Positions 18,204 through 51,270 of a stretch of 53,068 nt of DNA are shown in pieces. The first letter of the stretch is position 1. Every line of letters begins with the position of its first letter. Origin of the DNA: Verrucomicrobiaceae bacterium (GTDB lineage: Bacteria > Pseudomonadota > Gammaproteobacteria > Pseudomonadales > CAMLJR01); contig JAQGNY010000024.1 in the NCBI GenBank assembly GCA_028293825.1, positions 1 through 53,068 of the forward strand, read 5' to 3'. The notes beneath the pieces were generated by a model. The model made no database searches. It saw nothing but the letters and a program-made list of their open reading frames with translations, and had not been told where the DNA came from. The position numbers were made by a program, and so were the translations under genes.

Positions 18204-19000
18204 GAAAACAACTGCTTGCTCTTGTCTTTTTACTCGCGCCGACGTTGGCGCTGGCGAATGAAGCAAAGTGGCCGCTCGATCATCGGGTGTGGGATGCCTC
18301 TAACAAGCCTTCGCTGCAGCACGGCGCGCAATTGTTCATGAACTACTGCATGGGCTGCCACTCCCTGCAGTACGAGCGTTATGAGCGACTTTCGACCGGT
18401 CTCGGTATCCCCGAAGATCTGGTTTTGCAAAATCTGCGTTTCGATACCAGTGCCAAAATCGGTGACCTAATGGTCAATTCGATGGCAACCAAACAAGCGA
18501 AGGAATGGTTTGGTGCACCGCCGCCCGATTTGACGCTGGTTACCCGTGCCCGGGGCGGCGCCGATTGGGTGTACACCTATTTGCGCACCTTCTACAAAGA
18601 TCCGGCGCGGCCCTGGGGCGTAAACAATAAGGTGTTCCCCGACGTGGGCATGCCGCACGTGTTGATCGGTTTGCAGGGTGTTCAGGAATGCGCGCCGGGT
18701 GAATCGCATGCTGAGAACGGCGGTGTTCGCCGCGATCCGCTGACCCGTGAAGAAGTGCTGCTTGGTGAAGACGGTAAGCCGCTGAATCCCTGCGGTCGTT
18801 TGAAGGTCACGGTGCCGGGTTCGTTAACGCCGCAAGAGTTTGACGATTCTGTTTATGATCTGGTGAATTTCCTCAACTACGTTGCGGAACCGATGCAGGA
18901 ACAGCGCAAGCACACTGGCACTTTCGTACTATTCTTCCTCGCAATATTGTTTGTATTCGCATGGCTGTTGAATCGCGAATACTGGAAAGACGTTCATTAA
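18200..19000 (+). CDS. petC: PetC, cytochrome c1 subunit of the bc1 complex
   Basis: Heme c subunit that passes electrons from the Rieske protein to soluble cytochromes. 266 residues: a Sec signal peptide (cut predicted after LALA near residue 19), the heme site Cys50-x-x-Cys53-His54 (CMGCHS), a candidate methionine ligand in DVGMPHVL, and a single C-terminal anchor helix (about 240-258, FVLFFLAILFVFAWLL). Unlike some relatives it is not fused to cytochrome b. A strong hairpin terminator follows. Confidence 0.98.
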   Translation: MRKQLLALVFLLAPTLALANEAKWPLDHRVWDASNKPSLQHGAQLFMNYCMGCHSLQYERYERLSTGLGIPEDLVLQNLRFDTSAKIGDLMVNSMATKQAKEWFGAPPPDLTLVTRARGGADWVYTYLRTFYKDPARPWGVNNKVFPDVGMPHVLIGLQGVQECAPGESHAENGGVRRDPLTREEVLLGEDGKPLNPCGRLKVTVPGSLTPQEFDDSVYDLVNFLNYVAEPMQEQRKHTGTFVLFFLAILFVFAWLLNREYWKDVH

Positions 19001-19007
19001 TAATTAA

Positions 19008-19040
19008 TTGAGTGCGGGCAAATGTCCGCGCTCAATCTTT
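19008..19040 (+). terminator. Terminator after petC
   Basis: A 12-base-pair stem (TTGAGTGCGGGC / GTCCGCGCTCAA, with G-U pairs) and loop AAAT, followed by a T-rich tract. It starts eight bases after the petC stop, so sspB probably has its own promoter, although I could not identify one. Confidence 0.7.
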
Positions 19041-19168
19041 CACTATATTTTTTCAACTCAATTTTTTGCATTTAACTAGTCGATCCGACAACAATCGCGG
19101 TAGCCCTCGCGAGACGTTCTTGTTTGCAATCTCGCCGTTCCCTCCGCTCGTGTTTCAAAGGATTCCTC

Positions 19169-19579
19169 ATGTCGTCGATGACCAGCAGTCGTCCCTATTT
19201 GATGCGCGCACTGTACGAATGGATTGTCGAAAATAACTGCACGCCGTACGTCGTCGTTAACGCGAATCGCGACGACGTGCAGGTGCCGCGCGCTCACGTT
19301 AAAGACGGTCAAATTGTTTTAAATATTGCACCTGGTGCGGTGGTCGGTTTTGTTGTCGACAATAATGCGATGGAATTTAACGCGCGCTTCGGCGGTGTCG
19401 CGATGCAAATTTACGTGCCGATGAGCGCGGTGCTTGGGATTTATGCGCGCGAGAACGGGCAGGGCATGATGTTCGAGCAGGAAGAAAATTTACCGCCAGA
19501 GCCATCGGCGCCGGAGCCACATGGCGATACCACAAAAACAAAAAAGCCCGGCAGGCCGGGCTTGAAAATTGTCAAATAA
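19169..19579 (+). CDS. sspB: SspB, ClpXP specificity adaptor
   Basis: Dimeric adaptor that binds ssrA-tagged proteins and delivers them to ClpXP. The start at ATG 19169, seven bases after AAAGGA, gives 136 residues; an ATG nine bases on is an alternative. The substrate-binding domain fills residues 5-110 (RPYLMRALYEWIVENNCTPY, then VPMSAVLGIYARENGQGM). A flexible acidic/Pro linker ends in the ClpX-binding tail GRPGLKIVK, closely matching the E. coli tail. The normal partner sspA, which should lie between petC and sspB, is absent: only 168 non-coding bases are there. Confidence 0.96.
   Translation: MSSMTSSRPYLMRALYEWIVENNCTPYVVVNANRDDVQVPRAHVKDGQIVLNIAPGAVVGFVVDNNAMEFNARFGGVAMQIYVPMSAVLGIYARENGQGMMFEQEENLPPEPSAPEPHGDTTKTKKPGRPGLKIVK
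19532..19563 (-). terminator. Rho-independent terminator for dolP, inside the sspB coding region
   Basis: A perfect nine-base-pair stem (AAGCCCGGC / GCCGGGCTT, two-base loop) followed on the minus strand by TTTTTTGTTTTTG. It lies 18 bases past the dolP stop. On the plus strand the same hairpin is made of sspB codons for the C-terminal tail and lacks a downstream U-tract, so it should end only the leftward lpoA-yraN-diaA-dolP message. Confidence 0.8.
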
Positions 19580-19581
19580 AA

Positions 19582-20151
19582 TTAACCGTCGACGTACTCG
19601 AATAGCAACACCACTTTCTGTACGCCGCCGGTGTCCTGCGTCGCTTTGCCGGCCAGGTCTGCTTCTTCATGAGTCACCAAACCCATCAAAAACACCACGC
19701 CATTTTCGGTAATGACTTTTACACGGCTGTCTTTAATATTGGCGGCGGTGAGCAATCGGCTTTTCACTTTCGTCGTTATCAATGTATCGGATGAATGCAC
19801 CGCGAAGCTGGCGTTATCGCCTACCGTCAATTCATTGCGCACGCTTTTAACGCTTTTAACATTGGCTGCAACTTCCGCAGCGCGCACGCGCAATTCTTCA
19901 TTGGGTACTTGTCCGATAAGTAATACGTTGCCGTTGTAGCTGACAACAATGACATTGGCATCGTCCAGTGCTTGCGCCGCTCTGTTGATATTTGCTGTCG
20001 CAGTTGTTTCAATAGTTTGATCGTCGATAACGCTGCCGAGACTGCGGCGCCCCGGATCTTCTTGCGCGGGTTGATCGTTGTGAGTAAACGTACTGCACCC
20101 GCCAGCCAATAGCGTTAAAGAAATAATTGCAATTCCGCGTAACAATTTCAC
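19582..20151 (-). CDS. dolP: DolP/YraP-like BON-domain outer-membrane lipoprotein
   Basis: Lipoprotein with two BON domains; DolP of E. coli binds anionic phospholipids at division sites and supports outer-membrane integrity. I chose GTG 20151, with AGGT five bases upstream and one base after the diaA stop; this gives 189 residues and a clean lipoprotein signal with Cys19 in LLAGGC. BON 1 is about residues 45-110 and BON 2 about 120-185. Last gene of the lpoA-yraN-diaA-dolP set, an order shared with E. coli. A 9-base direct repeat (19841-19858) encodes VKSVKSV. Confidence 0.9.
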   Translation of the reverse strand: MKLLRGIAIISLTLLAGGCSTFTHNDQPAQEDPGRRSLGSVIDDQTIETTATANINRAAQALDDANVIVVSYNGNVLLIGQVPNEELRVRAAEVAANVKSVKSVRNELTVGDNASFAVHSSDTLITTKVKSRLLTAANIKDSRVKVITENGVVFLMGLVTHEEADLAGKATQDTGGVQKVVLLFEYVDG

Positions 20152-20152
20152 A

Positions 20153-20746
20153 TCACACCTCGCTGCCAAAAAGTTGCAATTCAATTAATTCGCACAAGCT
20201 GTGCAACGTCAGCAATGCGATTTCCATAAATGTGGCGCGCGGTACATCGCCTATATTTAATTCGATATCGTCAGCAGTTAACAGCGCGCGAATATCATTG
20301 TCGTTATCGCCGCACAGCACTATTACGCGAATACCGCGATCGTGCGCCGCCTGAATCGTTTGCAATGCGGTGCCGCTGCCAGTGCCGTGACTAATTAGCA
20401 GCAGTATATCCTGCGCCTGTGCGAGCGTACGGATTTGCTTGGCGAAGATTTCGTTGAACGATGAATCGCTGGCGATAGCGGTGAGCATCGATGCGTCACC
20501 GCTGAGCGCGATAGCAGGTAACCCGGGTCGCTCGCGTTGAAAACGATTTAATAAAATGTTTGCGAAGTGCTGGCTCAATAAGCCGGAGCTTCCTTCGCCG
20601 CAGCACAGAATTTTGCCTTCGTTAAGTAGCGCGCCGACTAATACTTCGCTGGTTGCAACAATCAACGGCGAGAACGATTCGATGGTTTGCATGGTCGTGT
20701 CGATATGACGATGAAAAATATCGACCACGTAATCGGTGAGTTCCAT
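20153..20746 (-). CDS. diaA: DiaA-like SIS-domain protein (DnaA regulator / phosphoheptose isomerase family)
   Basis: SIS-fold protein close to GmhA. In E. coli DiaA tetramers bind DnaA and promote timely initiation. 197 residues with the SIS core (GKILCCGEGSSGLLSQHFA, SGDASMLTAIASDSSFNEIF, LLLISHGTGSG). The family GNGGSA loop reads GEGSSG here. Position between yraN and dolP supports DiaA over the heptose isomerase, but the enzyme activity cannot be excluded from sequence alone. Confidence 0.88.
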   Translation of the reverse strand: MELTDYVVDIFHRHIDTTMQTIESFSPLIVATSEVLVGALLNEGKILCCGEGSSGLLSQHFANILLNRFQRERPGLPAIALSGDASMLTAIASDSSFNEIFAKQIRTLAQAQDILLLISHGTGSGTALQTIQAAHDRGIRVIVLCGDNDNDIRALLTADDIELNIGDVPRATFMEIALLTLHSLCELIELQLFGSEV

Positions 20747-20786: not shown

Positions 20787-21173
20787 TTATTCAGCAAGAA
20801 AAGCGTCGCGCAACCATTGCCACTCAAGAATGCCAGCTAAATTTTTTGCTGCCATTACATCGAAGCGACAGCCGCTGTTTTGCCAGCGCGCATGCTCAGA
20901 TAAAAAATGGCGCGCCGCGCAAATTATTCGACGTTGCTTTGATCCAGTTACCGATTCCGCTGCACTGCCGTAATCATTGCGATTGCGCAGCCGTACTTCG
21001 ACAAAAACCAAATCGTCGCCATCGCGCATGATCAAATCGATTTCGCCACCTTTGCAGCGATAGTTTTTTTCCACCAGCGCTAATCCTTGGCGCTTCAGCC
21101 ATGCCGCCGCTGCAGCTTCCGCTGCGCTGCCATCACTGGTTTGCTGGGGGTGAAGTATTCGGTTGTTCGACAT
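20787..21173 (-). CDS. yraN: YraN family (UPF0102) endonuclease-like protein
   Basis: Restriction-endonuclease-fold protein of uncertain function, always near lpoA and rsmI. ATG 21173 is preferred because AGGG lies six bases upstream; an ATG six bases earlier is too close to that site. This gives 128 residues. The nuclease-like signature is present: GEIDLIMRDGDDLVFVEVRLR (Glu, Asp and E-x-R in place of the usual E-x-K), then KQRRIICAARHFL. It overlaps the lpoA 3' end by about 40 bases. Confidence 0.9.
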   Translation of the reverse strand: MSNNRILHPQQTSDGSAAEAAAAAWLKRQGLALVEKNYRCKGGEIDLIMRDGDDLVFVEVRLRNRNDYGSAAESVTGSKQRRIICAARHFLSEHARWQNSGCRFDVMAAKNLAGILEWQWLRDAFLAE

Positions 21174-23028
21174 TGTCATCCCTGCCGCTATCGTTGGTTT
21201 CCGCCAAAATGCCATTGCCGTCGATTACGCGTGGAGTACCGCCGCGCATTTCGGCCAGCGGTAATTCGCGCTGCACAATATGTTGCACACTCAGTGACAG
21301 CATGCCGGTTTGTCCACTCACATGCTGATCGCTATTCATCGTCATTTGTTGCAAGCGCGGATACAGCGTGAAACTGTCGATGCCCAGCGCGTACAGGCGC
21401 AAATAATTTTTGCTGTTGGCGCGCGTGGCAATAATTTGTTGTTTAAGAGCGCTCTGCTGCAATACCCACGGTATTTCGGTAAACCGAACTTTTTCGGCAT
21501 CGCGGTCGGGGTCCGCACCGGAATAGCCGCTGTAAATGCGCGAGGTCGAATAAATTGGCAAATCGCTCGCGTAATAAAAATCGAGCAGCGGTTTAATTAA
21601 GCGCGCCTGTGCGGGTTTCGCGAGCATAAAAACCATGTCGATATCGCGGCGCCGATGCGGTGTAAATTCAATGTTTCGATTTAGCACGCTTTCCATTTCT
21701 TTTGCGCGCGCTTCGCTGCGCGGAATATTGAGCGCAGTGCGAATGGCTGCCGATAAGCTTTGTTGGTCGCGATACAGCGCAGTCGCCGCGACAGTACCGC
21801 CCAAGCTTTGCCAACGTTGTGTGAATGCTTCTAGCTCGTGCGAATGCGCTTCATCCTCTGTGACAATCACCAACGCATTTGCGCGTTTCTCTTTCGCGGC
21901 AAAGGTCGCGAGCTGCGCGGTTTCATCTTCTGGCGCCAGCGCGAATTGATATAAATTCGCAGGCGCATTTTGCGCGGTGTCGGCGCGATTTAATGCGAGC
22001 AATGGCACTGTTAACGACTGCGTAAAAAATTGCGCAACCTGATTTTTTTCGAGCGGTCCGATAACGGCGGTGGCGCCCTCGGTCACTGCTTGTTGATAGA
22101 GCGCGACGATGCCAACGTTTTCGGTATCGTAAATGCGTACGCTCGGTACTGCTTCGCCACGGTGTTTCGCTTCGTATAGCGCAGCAAAAAAACCATCGCG
22201 CACGGCATCGCCGAAATTGGCAAGCTTGCCGCTTTGCGGTAACAGCAATGCGATTTGTTGCGATGCGTTGTTGCCAGGCGTTGGGCTCGAAGCCGGCTGC
22301 GAATTAGTGGGTTTTGCCGGTAATTTTTTCGACCAATCCGTCAGCGGCGATGTTTGATTAATTTTCGCAGCGAGTGCTAATTCGAGCCAGCGACGCAGTG
22401 CATCACTGTTTGCTTTGTCGCGATACTGCTGCAATTCGGCAGCCGTTAAATTCATCAGCGCGCGCTGTATTTCCTGATGATTTTGTTCGAGCTCGGCATC
22501 TTTGAGCATTGAATCGATGAAGATGCGTTCCTGCGCGCTGGCGTAAAATTTATTAGTGGCGGCCAATGCCTTCGCGCGCAGCAGGCTGATATTGGTTTGT
22601 TCGCGAGCGGGCAGTTGCGCGCTGTCCTGCTGTAACTCGTGCGTCTGTAGTATGGTCAATGCTTGCTCGGCTTTTCCTTGCAGCAATAATAATTGCGCGT
22701 GCAAGGCACCGCTGCGAGCGCGTTGATCGTCACGCAATTTCAGCTCATCGATTTCCTGCAAAATATGTTCGGCTTGTTGCGTGTCGTTTTGTTGCGTGTC
22801 GTTTTGTTGCAGCGCGATCTCGGCCGCATCGAGTAAATACAGCGCGCGCGTTTCCATCGGCGCCGCATGCGCTTTTTCTAATAGTTGCTGCACGTTGTCG
22901 ATGGGTGCTTTGGCGGCGCTGGATGCACTCGGAACCGCCGTGCAATTCACTAAGACGGCAATCAGTAGCAAAGCACCTAGCGCATTGGGCAGGCTATGAT
23001 TGCGCGACGATGCAAAATTTATTTTCAA
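21133..23028 (-). CDS. lpoA: LpoA, outer-membrane lipoprotein activator of PBP1a
   Basis: Outer-membrane lipoprotein that reaches through the periplasm to activate the class A synthase PBP1a. 631 residues. The start is TTG 23028, with AAGG eight bases upstream; no ATG gives an intact signal. The lipobox is atypical (LVNC, Cys29, with Asn where a small residue is usual). An N-terminal TPR-like helical domain (about 40-245) and a C-terminal type I periplasmic-binding-protein fold (about 260-600, QIALLLPQSGKLANFGDAVRDGF) give the classic two-domain LpoA. Residues near 75-86 contain a tandem QQNDT repeat. A Ser/Pro/Asn linker lies around 240-255. Confidence 0.92.
   Translation of the reverse strand: MKINFASSRNHSLPNALGALLLIAVLVNCTAVPSASSAAKAPIDNVQQLLEKAHAAPMETRALYLLDAAEIALQQNDTQQNDTQQAEHILQEIDELKLRDDQRARSGALHAQLLLLQGKAEQALTILQTHELQQDSAQLPAREQTNISLLRAKALAATNKFYASAQERIFIDSMLKDAELEQNHQEIQRALMNLTAAELQQYRDKANSDALRRWLELALAAKINQTSPLTDWSKKLPAKPTNSQPASSPTPGNNASQQIALLLPQSGKLANFGDAVRDGFFAALYEAKHRGEAVPSVRIYDTENVGIVALYQQAVTEGATAVIGPLEKNQVAQFFTQSLTVPLLALNRADTAQNAPANLYQFALAPEDETAQLATFAAKEKRANALVIVTEDEAHSHELEAFTQRWQSLGGTVAATALYRDQQSLSAAIRTALNIPRSEARAKEMESVLNRNIEFTPHRRRDIDMVFMLAKPAQARLIKPLLDFYYASDLPIYSTSRIYSGYSGADPDRDAEKVRFTEIPWVLQQSALKQQIIATRANSKNYLRLYALGIDSFTLYPRLQQMTMNSDQHVSGQTGMLSLSVQHIVQRELPLAEMRGGTPRVIDGNGILAETNDSGRDDNVEQPNTSPPANQ
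22776..22810. repeat. 15-base tandem repeat inside lpoA
   Basis: Two exact copies of a 15-base unit (GTTGCGTGTCGTTTT on the plus strand, 22776-22790 and 22791-22805) plus five bases of a third. On the coding strand it encodes a repeated five-residue unit in the TPR-like region, so length changes of one unit would keep the frame. Confidence 0.9.
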
Positions 23029-49166: not shown

Positions 49167-50045
49167 TTAAAGACCGACGAACTGCAAATAATTTTGGATC
49201 AATAATTTGCCCCAGAAGAAGGCGATAACACCTGCACCGGCAAGATAAGGGCCGAATGGAATCGGTGTGCCGCGCCCCTTGCGCTGCGCAATCAACATTA
49301 ATGAGCCGATCACTGCACCGACCAGCGACGACAGCAAAATAATAACCGGCAACATCTGCCAGCCCATCCACGCGCCGAGCGCTGCCAGCAATTTGAAATC
49401 GCCGAAGCCCATGCCTTCTTTGCCGGTGAGTAATTTAAAAACGTGATACACGCTCCACAGGCTTAAATAGCCAGCGGCTGCGCCCCAGATGGCATCGTTC
49501 AGCGATACGAACATACCGCCGGTGTTCAGTAGCAATCCAAGCCACAACAGCGGCAGCGTTATTTGATCCGGCAATAATTGATGATCGACATCAATCATCG
49601 TCATCGCCAGCAATGCCCACAATAAAATCAGCGTTGCTAATAGCGGCCAGCCGAAACCCATTTGCCATGCGGTAAATACAGCCAGTAAACCGGAAACCAT
49701 TTCAATAATTGGATAGCGCTTCGAGATCGCAATTTTGCAATTCGCGCAGCGACCGCGCAAAAACAAATAGCTGATGACCGGAATATTTTGCCATGCGGCA
49801 ATTTTTGAATTACAGCCGGGGCAGCGCGATGGAGGAAAGGCGAGATTAAATGGTTCGCTGCTGACTGTCGGCGATTCTATATTTAATAGAAGCGAGCACT
49901 CCGAATGCCACTCACGCTGCATCATTACCGGCAGACGATAAATAACAACATTAAGGAAGCTGCCGACAATCAAGCCCAATAAAAAACACCCGGCGATTAA
50001 GTACGCCGGGTGTTCGAGAAAAAATGCGATATAGAGATTCAGCAC
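49167..50045 (-). CDS. pilD: PilD, prepilin peptidase and N-methyltransferase
   Basis: Inner-membrane aspartic protease that cuts type IV prepilin leaders and methylates the new N-terminus; often also serves type II secretion. 292 residues, about eight membrane helices. The cytoplasmic domain has the zinc tetracysteine C75-x2-C78 and C100-x2-C103. Catalytic aspartates are Asp152 (IDVDHQLLPD) and Asp216 (GFGDFKL). Seven bases after pilC. Confidence 0.97.
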   Translation of the reverse strand: MLNLYIAFFLEHPAYLIAGCFLLGLIVGSFLNVVIYRLPVMMQREWHSECSLLLNIESPTVSSEPFNLAFPPSRCPGCNSKIAAWQNIPVISYLFLRGRCANCKIAISKRYPIIEMVSGLLAVFTAWQMGFGWPLLATLILLWALLAMTMIDVDHQLLPDQITLPLLWLGLLLNTGGMFVSLNDAIWGAAAGYLSLWSVYHVFKLLTGKEGMGFGDFKLLAALGAWMGWQMLPVIILLSSLVGAVIGSLMLIAQRKGRGTPIPFGPYLAGAGVIAFFWGKLLIQNYLQFVGL

Positions 50046-50052
50046 TAGCGTC

Positions 50053-51270
50053 TTAGATAACCGAGCCGAGCGAGAAGATGGGCATATACATCGCGATCAT
50101 CAGGCCACCGACTAAAATACCGAGTACCGCCATAATCATCGGCTCAAGCAATGCGGTTAATGAATCGACCAGATTGTCGACTGCTTCCTCATAATGCGTT
50201 GCCACTTTGTCGAGCATTTCATCGAGTGCGCCCGACTCTTCGCCAATCGCCACCATCTGCGTCAGCATGGACGGAAACATATTGGTCGCTTTAATTGCGA
50301 CGTTGAGCTGTTGACCCGCGGTGACTTCCTCGCGGACACGTTGAATGGCATCGTGGTAGGGAATACTGCCGGCCGCTCCCGCTACGGAATCCAATGCATC
50401 CACCAGCGGAACACCGGCTGCGAATGTCGTGGAGAGGGTTCTGGCAAAGCGCGCAATTATCGATTGATAAACAATATTGCCGACGATAGGAATGCGTAAG
50501 GTCAGTCGATCCATATATTCATCAAATTTATGTGATCTTTTGCGCGCCTCAACGAATACAGCGCCACTGGCAATAATAATGATCAATATCAGCAGCCACC
50601 AGGATTGTACGGCTTCGGATAAATGCAGAACAAATAATGTAAAGGCCGGAAGTTGTGCGCCAAAGCCGGCAAATGTCGAAGCAAATTGCGGTACAACTTT
50701 AATTAACAAAATGGCAGTAACGACAACGGCGACGACAACCACCGCAGCAGGATAGGTCATCGCTTTTTTGATTTTTGCTTTTAATGCTTCGGTTTTTTCT
50801 TTGTAAGTGGCGATACGCGCGAGCATGGTTTCCAACGTACCGGCCTGTTCGCCAGCGCTGACCAAACTGCAAAATAATTCGTCAAAATATTTGGGATGCT
50901 TGCTGATTGATATGGCGAGCGAGGTACCGCTCGCAACTTCATTTTTAATTTCGATAACTAAATCACGCATCGTGCGATTTTCAAGACCTTCGGCCACGAT
51001 ATCGAAACTTTGTACCAGCGGCACACCGGCTTTCATCATGGTCGCGAGTTGACGCGCAAATATAGCAATGTCTGCGGGTTTTATTTTTTTCTGACCGCTG
51101 AACAGCGGCTTCGATTTGCGCTTAACCGTTTTGGCGGCAATACCCTGCTTGCGTAATTGAGCCTTAACCATCGCTTGATTGGAGCCGATAGCCTCACCTT
51201 TCGCGGGGCGACCCTGCCGATCGGTGCCCTGCCAAGTGTATGTCTGCGATTTCGCGGCAACGGTTGCCAT
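50053..51270 (-). CDS. pilC: PilC, type IV pilus inner-membrane platform protein
   Basis: Polytopic GspF-family protein that couples the PilB/PilT motors to pilin assembly. 405 residues with two repeated T2SSF domains (about 70-195 and 270-395) and three membrane segments (about 175-200, 220-240, 375-395). The FARQLATMMKAGVPLVQSFDI signature is clear, and FARTLSTTFAAGVPLVDALDSV repeats it. Four bases after pilB. Confidence 0.97.
   Translation of the reverse strand: MATVAAKSQTYTWQGTDRQGRPAKGEAIGSNQAMVKAQLRKQGIAAKTVKRKSKPLFSGQKKIKPADIAIFARQLATMMKAGVPLVQSFDIVAEGLENRTMRDLVIEIKNEVASGTSLAISISKHPKYFDELFCSLVSAGEQAGTLETMLARIATYKEKTEALKAKIKKAMTYPAAVVVVAVVVTAILLIKVVPQFASTFAGFGAQLPAFTLFVLHLSEAVQSWWLLILIIIIASGAVFVEARKRSHKFDEYMDRLTLRIPIVGNIVYQSIIARFARTLSTTFAAGVPLVDALDSVAGAAGSIPYHDAIQRVREEVTAGQQLNVAIKATNMFPSMLTQMVAIGEESGALDEMLDKVATHYEEAVDNLVDSLTALLEPMIMAVLGILVGGLMIAMYMPIFSLGSVI

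Follow-up and report, generated by a model that had tools for sequence, protein, structure and literature searches.

The convergent junction of sspB and dolP raises the question of where transcription of a leftward operon can end when its last gene stops almost against its neighbor. In the window, by which we mean the whole 53,068-nucleotide stretch of DNA that was analyzed, sspB (19169-19579, + strand; PF04386, E 2.6e-37) converges on a gene for a DolP-type lipoprotein with two BON domains (19582-20184, − strand; PF04972, E 4.1e-31), whose start is uncertain (20184 in the open reading frame list, 20151 in the gene call) and whose stop codon occupies 19582-19584 on the minus strand, leaving a gap of 2 bp. 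On the minus strand, dolP is preceded by a DiaA-type SIS gene (20153-20746), a YraN-type UPF0102 gene (20787-21215), and an LpoA-type LppC gene (21133-23028, extent of the open reading frame), all reading leftward. We consider it very likely, judging from the sequence, that the putative lpoA-yraN-diaA-dolP message has a one-directional intrinsic (Rho-independent) terminator lying antisense in the last ~16 codons of sspB, a position explained by the fact that genes 2 bp apart leave no intergenic room.

The other flank of sspB is also unusual, in that sspA is absent between petC and sspB (19000-19169). Among the 121 loci having more than 800 nt upstream of sspB, 118 have sspA there, the three without it being the window, L027, and L043. 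A Pseudomonas SspA query gave weak matches in the window's own genome (25-26% identity, E 1.5e-6 and 1.6e-4), for which reason sspA may have been lost from this genome, the assembly of which is 96% complete. Downstream of petC, the + strand at 19010-19040 reads GAGTGCGGGCAAATGTCCGCGCTC, a possible stem-loop by eye.

A predicted terminator in the SspB tail codons

On the minus strand, positions 19563-19544 read AAGCCCGG-CCTG-CCGGGCTT and run into the tail TTTTGTTTTT (19563-19534 in all), giving a perfect stem of 8 Watson-Crick pairs, 6 of them G-C, with a 4-nt CCTG loop. The hairpin energy is −13.7 kcal/mol, and the tail score of 4.7 (4.71) is the highest among the 33 minus-strand sites compared. 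This predicted terminator hairpin (19544-19563) lies entirely within sspB, separated from the dolP stop codon by an 18-nt spacer (19564-19581), and has the traits of an intrinsic terminator, namely a G+C-rich stem, a short loop, and an adjoining U-tract (19534-19543), all on the same strand and 3′ of the dolP stop. The 170 nt that follow this stop codon contain no second canonical terminator on the minus strand.

The codons that hold the terminator (19535-19576) encode KTKKPGRPGLKIVK. Its stem covers AAG CCC GGC AGG CCG GGC TT(G), which specifies K P G R P G (L), and the preceding AAA ACA AAA AAG, read as Lys-Thr-Lys-Lys on the + strand, provides the U-tract on the opposite strand. The first-pass annotation had placed a hairpin with a minus-strand U-tract at 19544-19563, had assigned the GRPGL part of the SspB tail to the same bases, and had traced the U-tract to the A-rich Lys-Thr-Lys-Lys stretch, all of which agrees with our re-reading of the sequence and codons; its nine-pair stem is corrected to eight. 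It had also stated that E. coli SspB ends in RPALRVVK, and the E. coli protein in PDB chain 8et3_Y indeed ends in GRPALRVVK, to which GRPGLKIVK corresponds here. The C-terminus of the window SspB is accordingly predicted to be of the ClpX-binding type; in E. coli, binding of the SspB end (XB peptide) to the ClpX zinc-binding domain is established (PMC12373786). A comparison of the tail peptide with PDB sequences returned 2 matches, both weak and irrelevant. In the hairpin loop, Arg is encoded by AGG (19550-19552), a codon used for ~1% of Arg residues in the sampled part of the genome and not needed for the stem.

Chance, codon usage, and relatives

We searched a sample of the window's own genome (28 pieces, 1,176,502 of 4,338,548 bp, with 966 genes called by a simple hexamer script rather than taken from an annotation) for canonical sites, defined as a perfect stem of at least 7 bp with at least 5 G-C pairs, a loop of 3-8 nt, and a tail score of at least 4. 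The 1,176,502 bp held 55 such sites, 52 of them intergenic, 1 at a gene edge, and 2 within called genes, 1 in sense and 1 in antisense orientation; the latter (1/55) is the window hairpin. Intergenic terminators are undercounted, because the stem rule, in favoring the longest stem, takes T's away from the tails of symmetric terminators and so reduces their scores. The sense in-gene site (49986-50013, − strand) is a strong terminator-like hairpin 32 nt inside the called gene 49167-50045, whose called start probably lies too far upstream; the gene at 50053-51270 may terminate at this hairpin.

When the last 31 SspB residues were recoded synonymously with genome codon usage in 200,000 draws, a stem of at least 7 bp with a tail score of at least 4 arose in 1237/200,000, and one of at least 8 bp with a tail score of at least 4.5 in 140/200,000. 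The minus-strand folding energy was moderately unusual relative to dinucleotide shuffles (z −1.76, 10/200 as good), and that of a tighter minus-strand stretch gave z −2.80, with 3/200 as good. A looser, energy-based scan (126/142 convergent pairs, gap ≤400) found in-gene candidates at 6/84 gene ends with a gap ≤30 versus 21/665 control ends with a codirectional downstream neighbor, and the combination of ΔG ≤ −12 with a tail score ≥4.5 was reached by 0/665 controls; the other 78 of these 84 ends had no candidate. A repeat or mobile palindrome was rejected, as the genome contains the stem pattern, arms exact, only twice, the second time as an intergenic hairpin with a T-run. The window hairpin is more than chance, and rarer than the protein and codon usage predict.

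Its distribution was followed across 196 sspB loci from Pseudomonadales-type and other gammaproteobacterial genomes, which came to 183 after loci with identical last 120 nt were merged. A convergent dolP lies nearby in 102/183; in the other 81 it was either not detected or lay farther away, some of these loci being cut by contig ends. With criteria fixed after the window and one relative, L074, had been looked at, 3/183 distinct tails contain a minus-strand terminator, namely those of the window, L074, and L159 (gaps of 2, 14, and 59), and at 30/183 loci the terminator is intergenic or overlaps the sspB stop. Evidently a canonical terminator is dispensable at such junctions, given that 150/183 have none by the criteria used, and even where the gap is ≤30, 34/36 sspB/dolP junctions are without one; Rho, collision, or weaker signals may serve these junctions. 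Synonymous shuffling within each gene gave an expected mean of 0.33 in-tail hits (0/300 shuffles reached 3), and of 0.36 in a rerun (3/400 reached 3). With the window left out, because it had been chosen for its hairpin, 2 were observed, a number reached in 15/400 shuffles. There is thus a modest family-wide excess of in-tail terminators over synonymous shuffling.

The two other in-tail cases come from two genera (g63 for L074 and g44 for L159) of family f44, which is not the window's family. Like the window hairpin they are one-directional and consist of AAA AAG codons followed by a GC-rich stem that ends at or just before the tail Leu codon, whereas their stem sequences and codons differ from those of the window and their tail scores are lower (3.7-3.8 vs 4.7). 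Since L074 and L159 belong to separate lineages, the three hairpins probably arose independently. Within the L074 clade, GGA GGC AAG AAG CCT CC in L074 corresponds to GGG GGC AAA AAG CCC CC in L059 and L062, with the hairpin over the same codons; the change from GGA:CCT to GGG:CCC converts an A-T pair to G-C and is synonymous on both sides, although as one pair in effectively two lineages it is weak evidence. SspB identity is 75% between L074 and L059/L062 and 96% between L059 and L062, and no such stem was found in L058, L173, or L174 (72, 69, and 67% identical to L074). In L059 and L062 no strong U-tract accompanies the in-tail hairpin on the dolP strand; the hairpin of L059 reaches −19.8 kcal/mol (z −4.59, 0/200 shuffles as good).

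The only same-genus relative in the sample (L004, SspB 64% identical, gap 79 bp) has no such hairpin, and the family-level search took in 2 genomes. A conserved stem with third-position compensation at the window junction was rejected, as no sampled relative shares the stem. The first-pass annotation had read the DNA as a terminator and a protein tail under joint constraint, and had named relatives with the same tail and no stem as evidence against this. Its canonical, one-directional terminator-like hairpin for the dolP strand stands. A conserved dual constraint is not supported, the hairpin being absent from L004 and 180/183 tails having no in-tail terminator; relatives with the tail and without the stem speak against conservation and not against function in this genome. 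The predicted double constraint of terminator and tail is local and lineage-specific.

The same tails differ in how the two strands are used. Intergenic and stop-overlapping hairpins at the sspB/dolP junctions of relatives (30/183) occupy the same junction as the window hairpin and presumably do the same job for dolP; unlike it, they lie after or over the sspB stop codon, and on the sspB strand their tail scores have a median of 3.76, with 19/30 at ≥3.5. The three in-tail hairpins score 0.17 (window), 0.12, and 1.10 on that strand. One-directionality is expected of an in-tail hairpin, because a sense-strand terminator inside sspB would truncate the sspB message. A bidirectional terminator was rejected for the window, where the + strand continues with GAAAATTG, which contains no U-tract.

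A more speculative possibility concerns the residue before the tail Leu, which is G in the window, P in L074, and A in L159, versus Ser or Thr in 125/182 and Gly in 10 of the 182 other tails. The tail could be a recurrent landing site for antisense terminators, at which the usual Ser/Thr before the invariant-looking Leu gives way to a residue with a G+C-rich codon. We think this unlikely; if true, the docking motif of a protease adaptor would have been changed on three or more occasions by a transcription signal of the neighboring operon.

Alternative readings of the hairpin

The plainest alternative is coincidence, in which a disordered tail rich in Lys and Pro/Gly happens to spell a hairpin and an A-run that have no selected role, with some termination still possible. 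Such tails are predisposed to this, since the window tail shuffled synonymously within its own gene gave 19/300 hits under looser criteria, and both the missing conservation of the hairpin and the absence of a terminator from many junctions are what coincidence would produce. It sits poorly with the rarity of a hairpin of the observed strength (the 140 recodings above), with a tail score that is the best of the 33 sites, with a strand and position that fit dolP, and with the finding of no further CDS-antisense site of such quality in 1.18 Mb, so that we regard it as improbable.

Two further readings place the function on the sspB strand, and to both we assign a very small probability. The hairpin might act on the sspB message, for example as a 3′-end structure that slows decay or as a brake on translation of the tail codons, and the + strand does fold well (z −2.76, 1/200 shuffles as good). 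However, the + side has no U-tract (tail score 0.17) and ribosomes translate across it, and the long U-run on the minus side would be left unexplained. The stable stem might otherwise stimulate a programmed −1 frameshift at A_AAA_AAG (ACA AAA AAG CCC, 19538-19546), changing PGRPGLKIVK to ARQAGLENCQIKLTVDVLE and yielding an SspB product without the ClpX-binding end. The heptamer is in frame at the base of the stem, and an in-frame A_AAA_AAR occurs within the last 30 codons of 3/183 tails, those of the window (L001), of L074, and of L047, the first two of which have in-tail hairpins. Known −1 frameshift stimulators stand several nucleotides from the slippery heptamer, whereas this stem starts inside it with a spacer of ~0; the third in-tail case, L159, reads T_AAA_AAG, which is not slippery; and a minus-strand terminator already accounts for the A-run and the stem. 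Frameshifting at this site therefore seems about as remote as a role in the sspB message, and a terminator for dolP is the reading we prefer.

Mechanism and known systems

If the hairpin is a dolP terminator, RNA polymerase passing the dolP stop codon would read through the 18-nt spacer into the SspB tail codons in antisense, where the G+C stem would fold and the U-run would free the RNA, so that antisense RNA over sspB would be limited to about its last 45 nt. The tail would be well suited to this, as its Lys codons AAA/AAG become a U-tract when the opposite strand is transcribed, and its Pro/Gly/Arg codons can pair together. We infer that termination would occur at the hairpin, that it would serve the whole operon, and that selection would have placed it there. 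In one E. coli system, termination was maximal with a spacer of >27 nt (PMC4824070). The 18-nt spacer here is shorter, and by analogy a terminating ribosome may weaken the window terminator and possibly reduce its efficiency. The junction is a clean natural case of a single DNA segment that encodes a protein tail on one strand and a predicted terminator on the other, and it illustrates how, when convergent genes abut, a terminator could shift into the disordered, Lys/Pro/Gly-rich end of the neighbor and lose its second U-tract. Gene ends read as plain codons may in this way carry regulatory signals for the neighboring gene; with such a signal in the sspB codons, recoding or deleting sspB in genomes of this kind could give read-through from dolP.

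Bidirectional terminators between convergent genes are described by Zymomonas Term-seq (PMC7566282) and reportedly by Ju et al. 2019. These resemble the window hairpin in being intrinsic terminators at a tail-to-tail junction, and differ from it in having U-tracts on both strands, whereas the window hairpin is intragenic and has its single U-tract on the minus strand. Other reports indicate that terminators between convergent genes are common (PMC7566282), that some terminators overlap genes (PMC4824070), and that convergent genes with overlapping 3′ ends occur widely (PMC7821165); we found no paper on the sspB/dolP junction in open-licence PMC text. A close parallel is the mscL/arfA convergent pair of Enterobacterales (PMC10070815), where the last codons of one gene double as the 3′ UTR of its partner and contain a stem-loop, at an intergenic distance that differs between species. 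There, however, the stem-loop belongs to the arfA message and is cleaved by RNase III, with antisense regulation demonstrated, whereas here the U-tract points to dolP. The arrangement is of a known kind, an ordinary compaction of the genome particular to this lineage, and it opens no new class of element.
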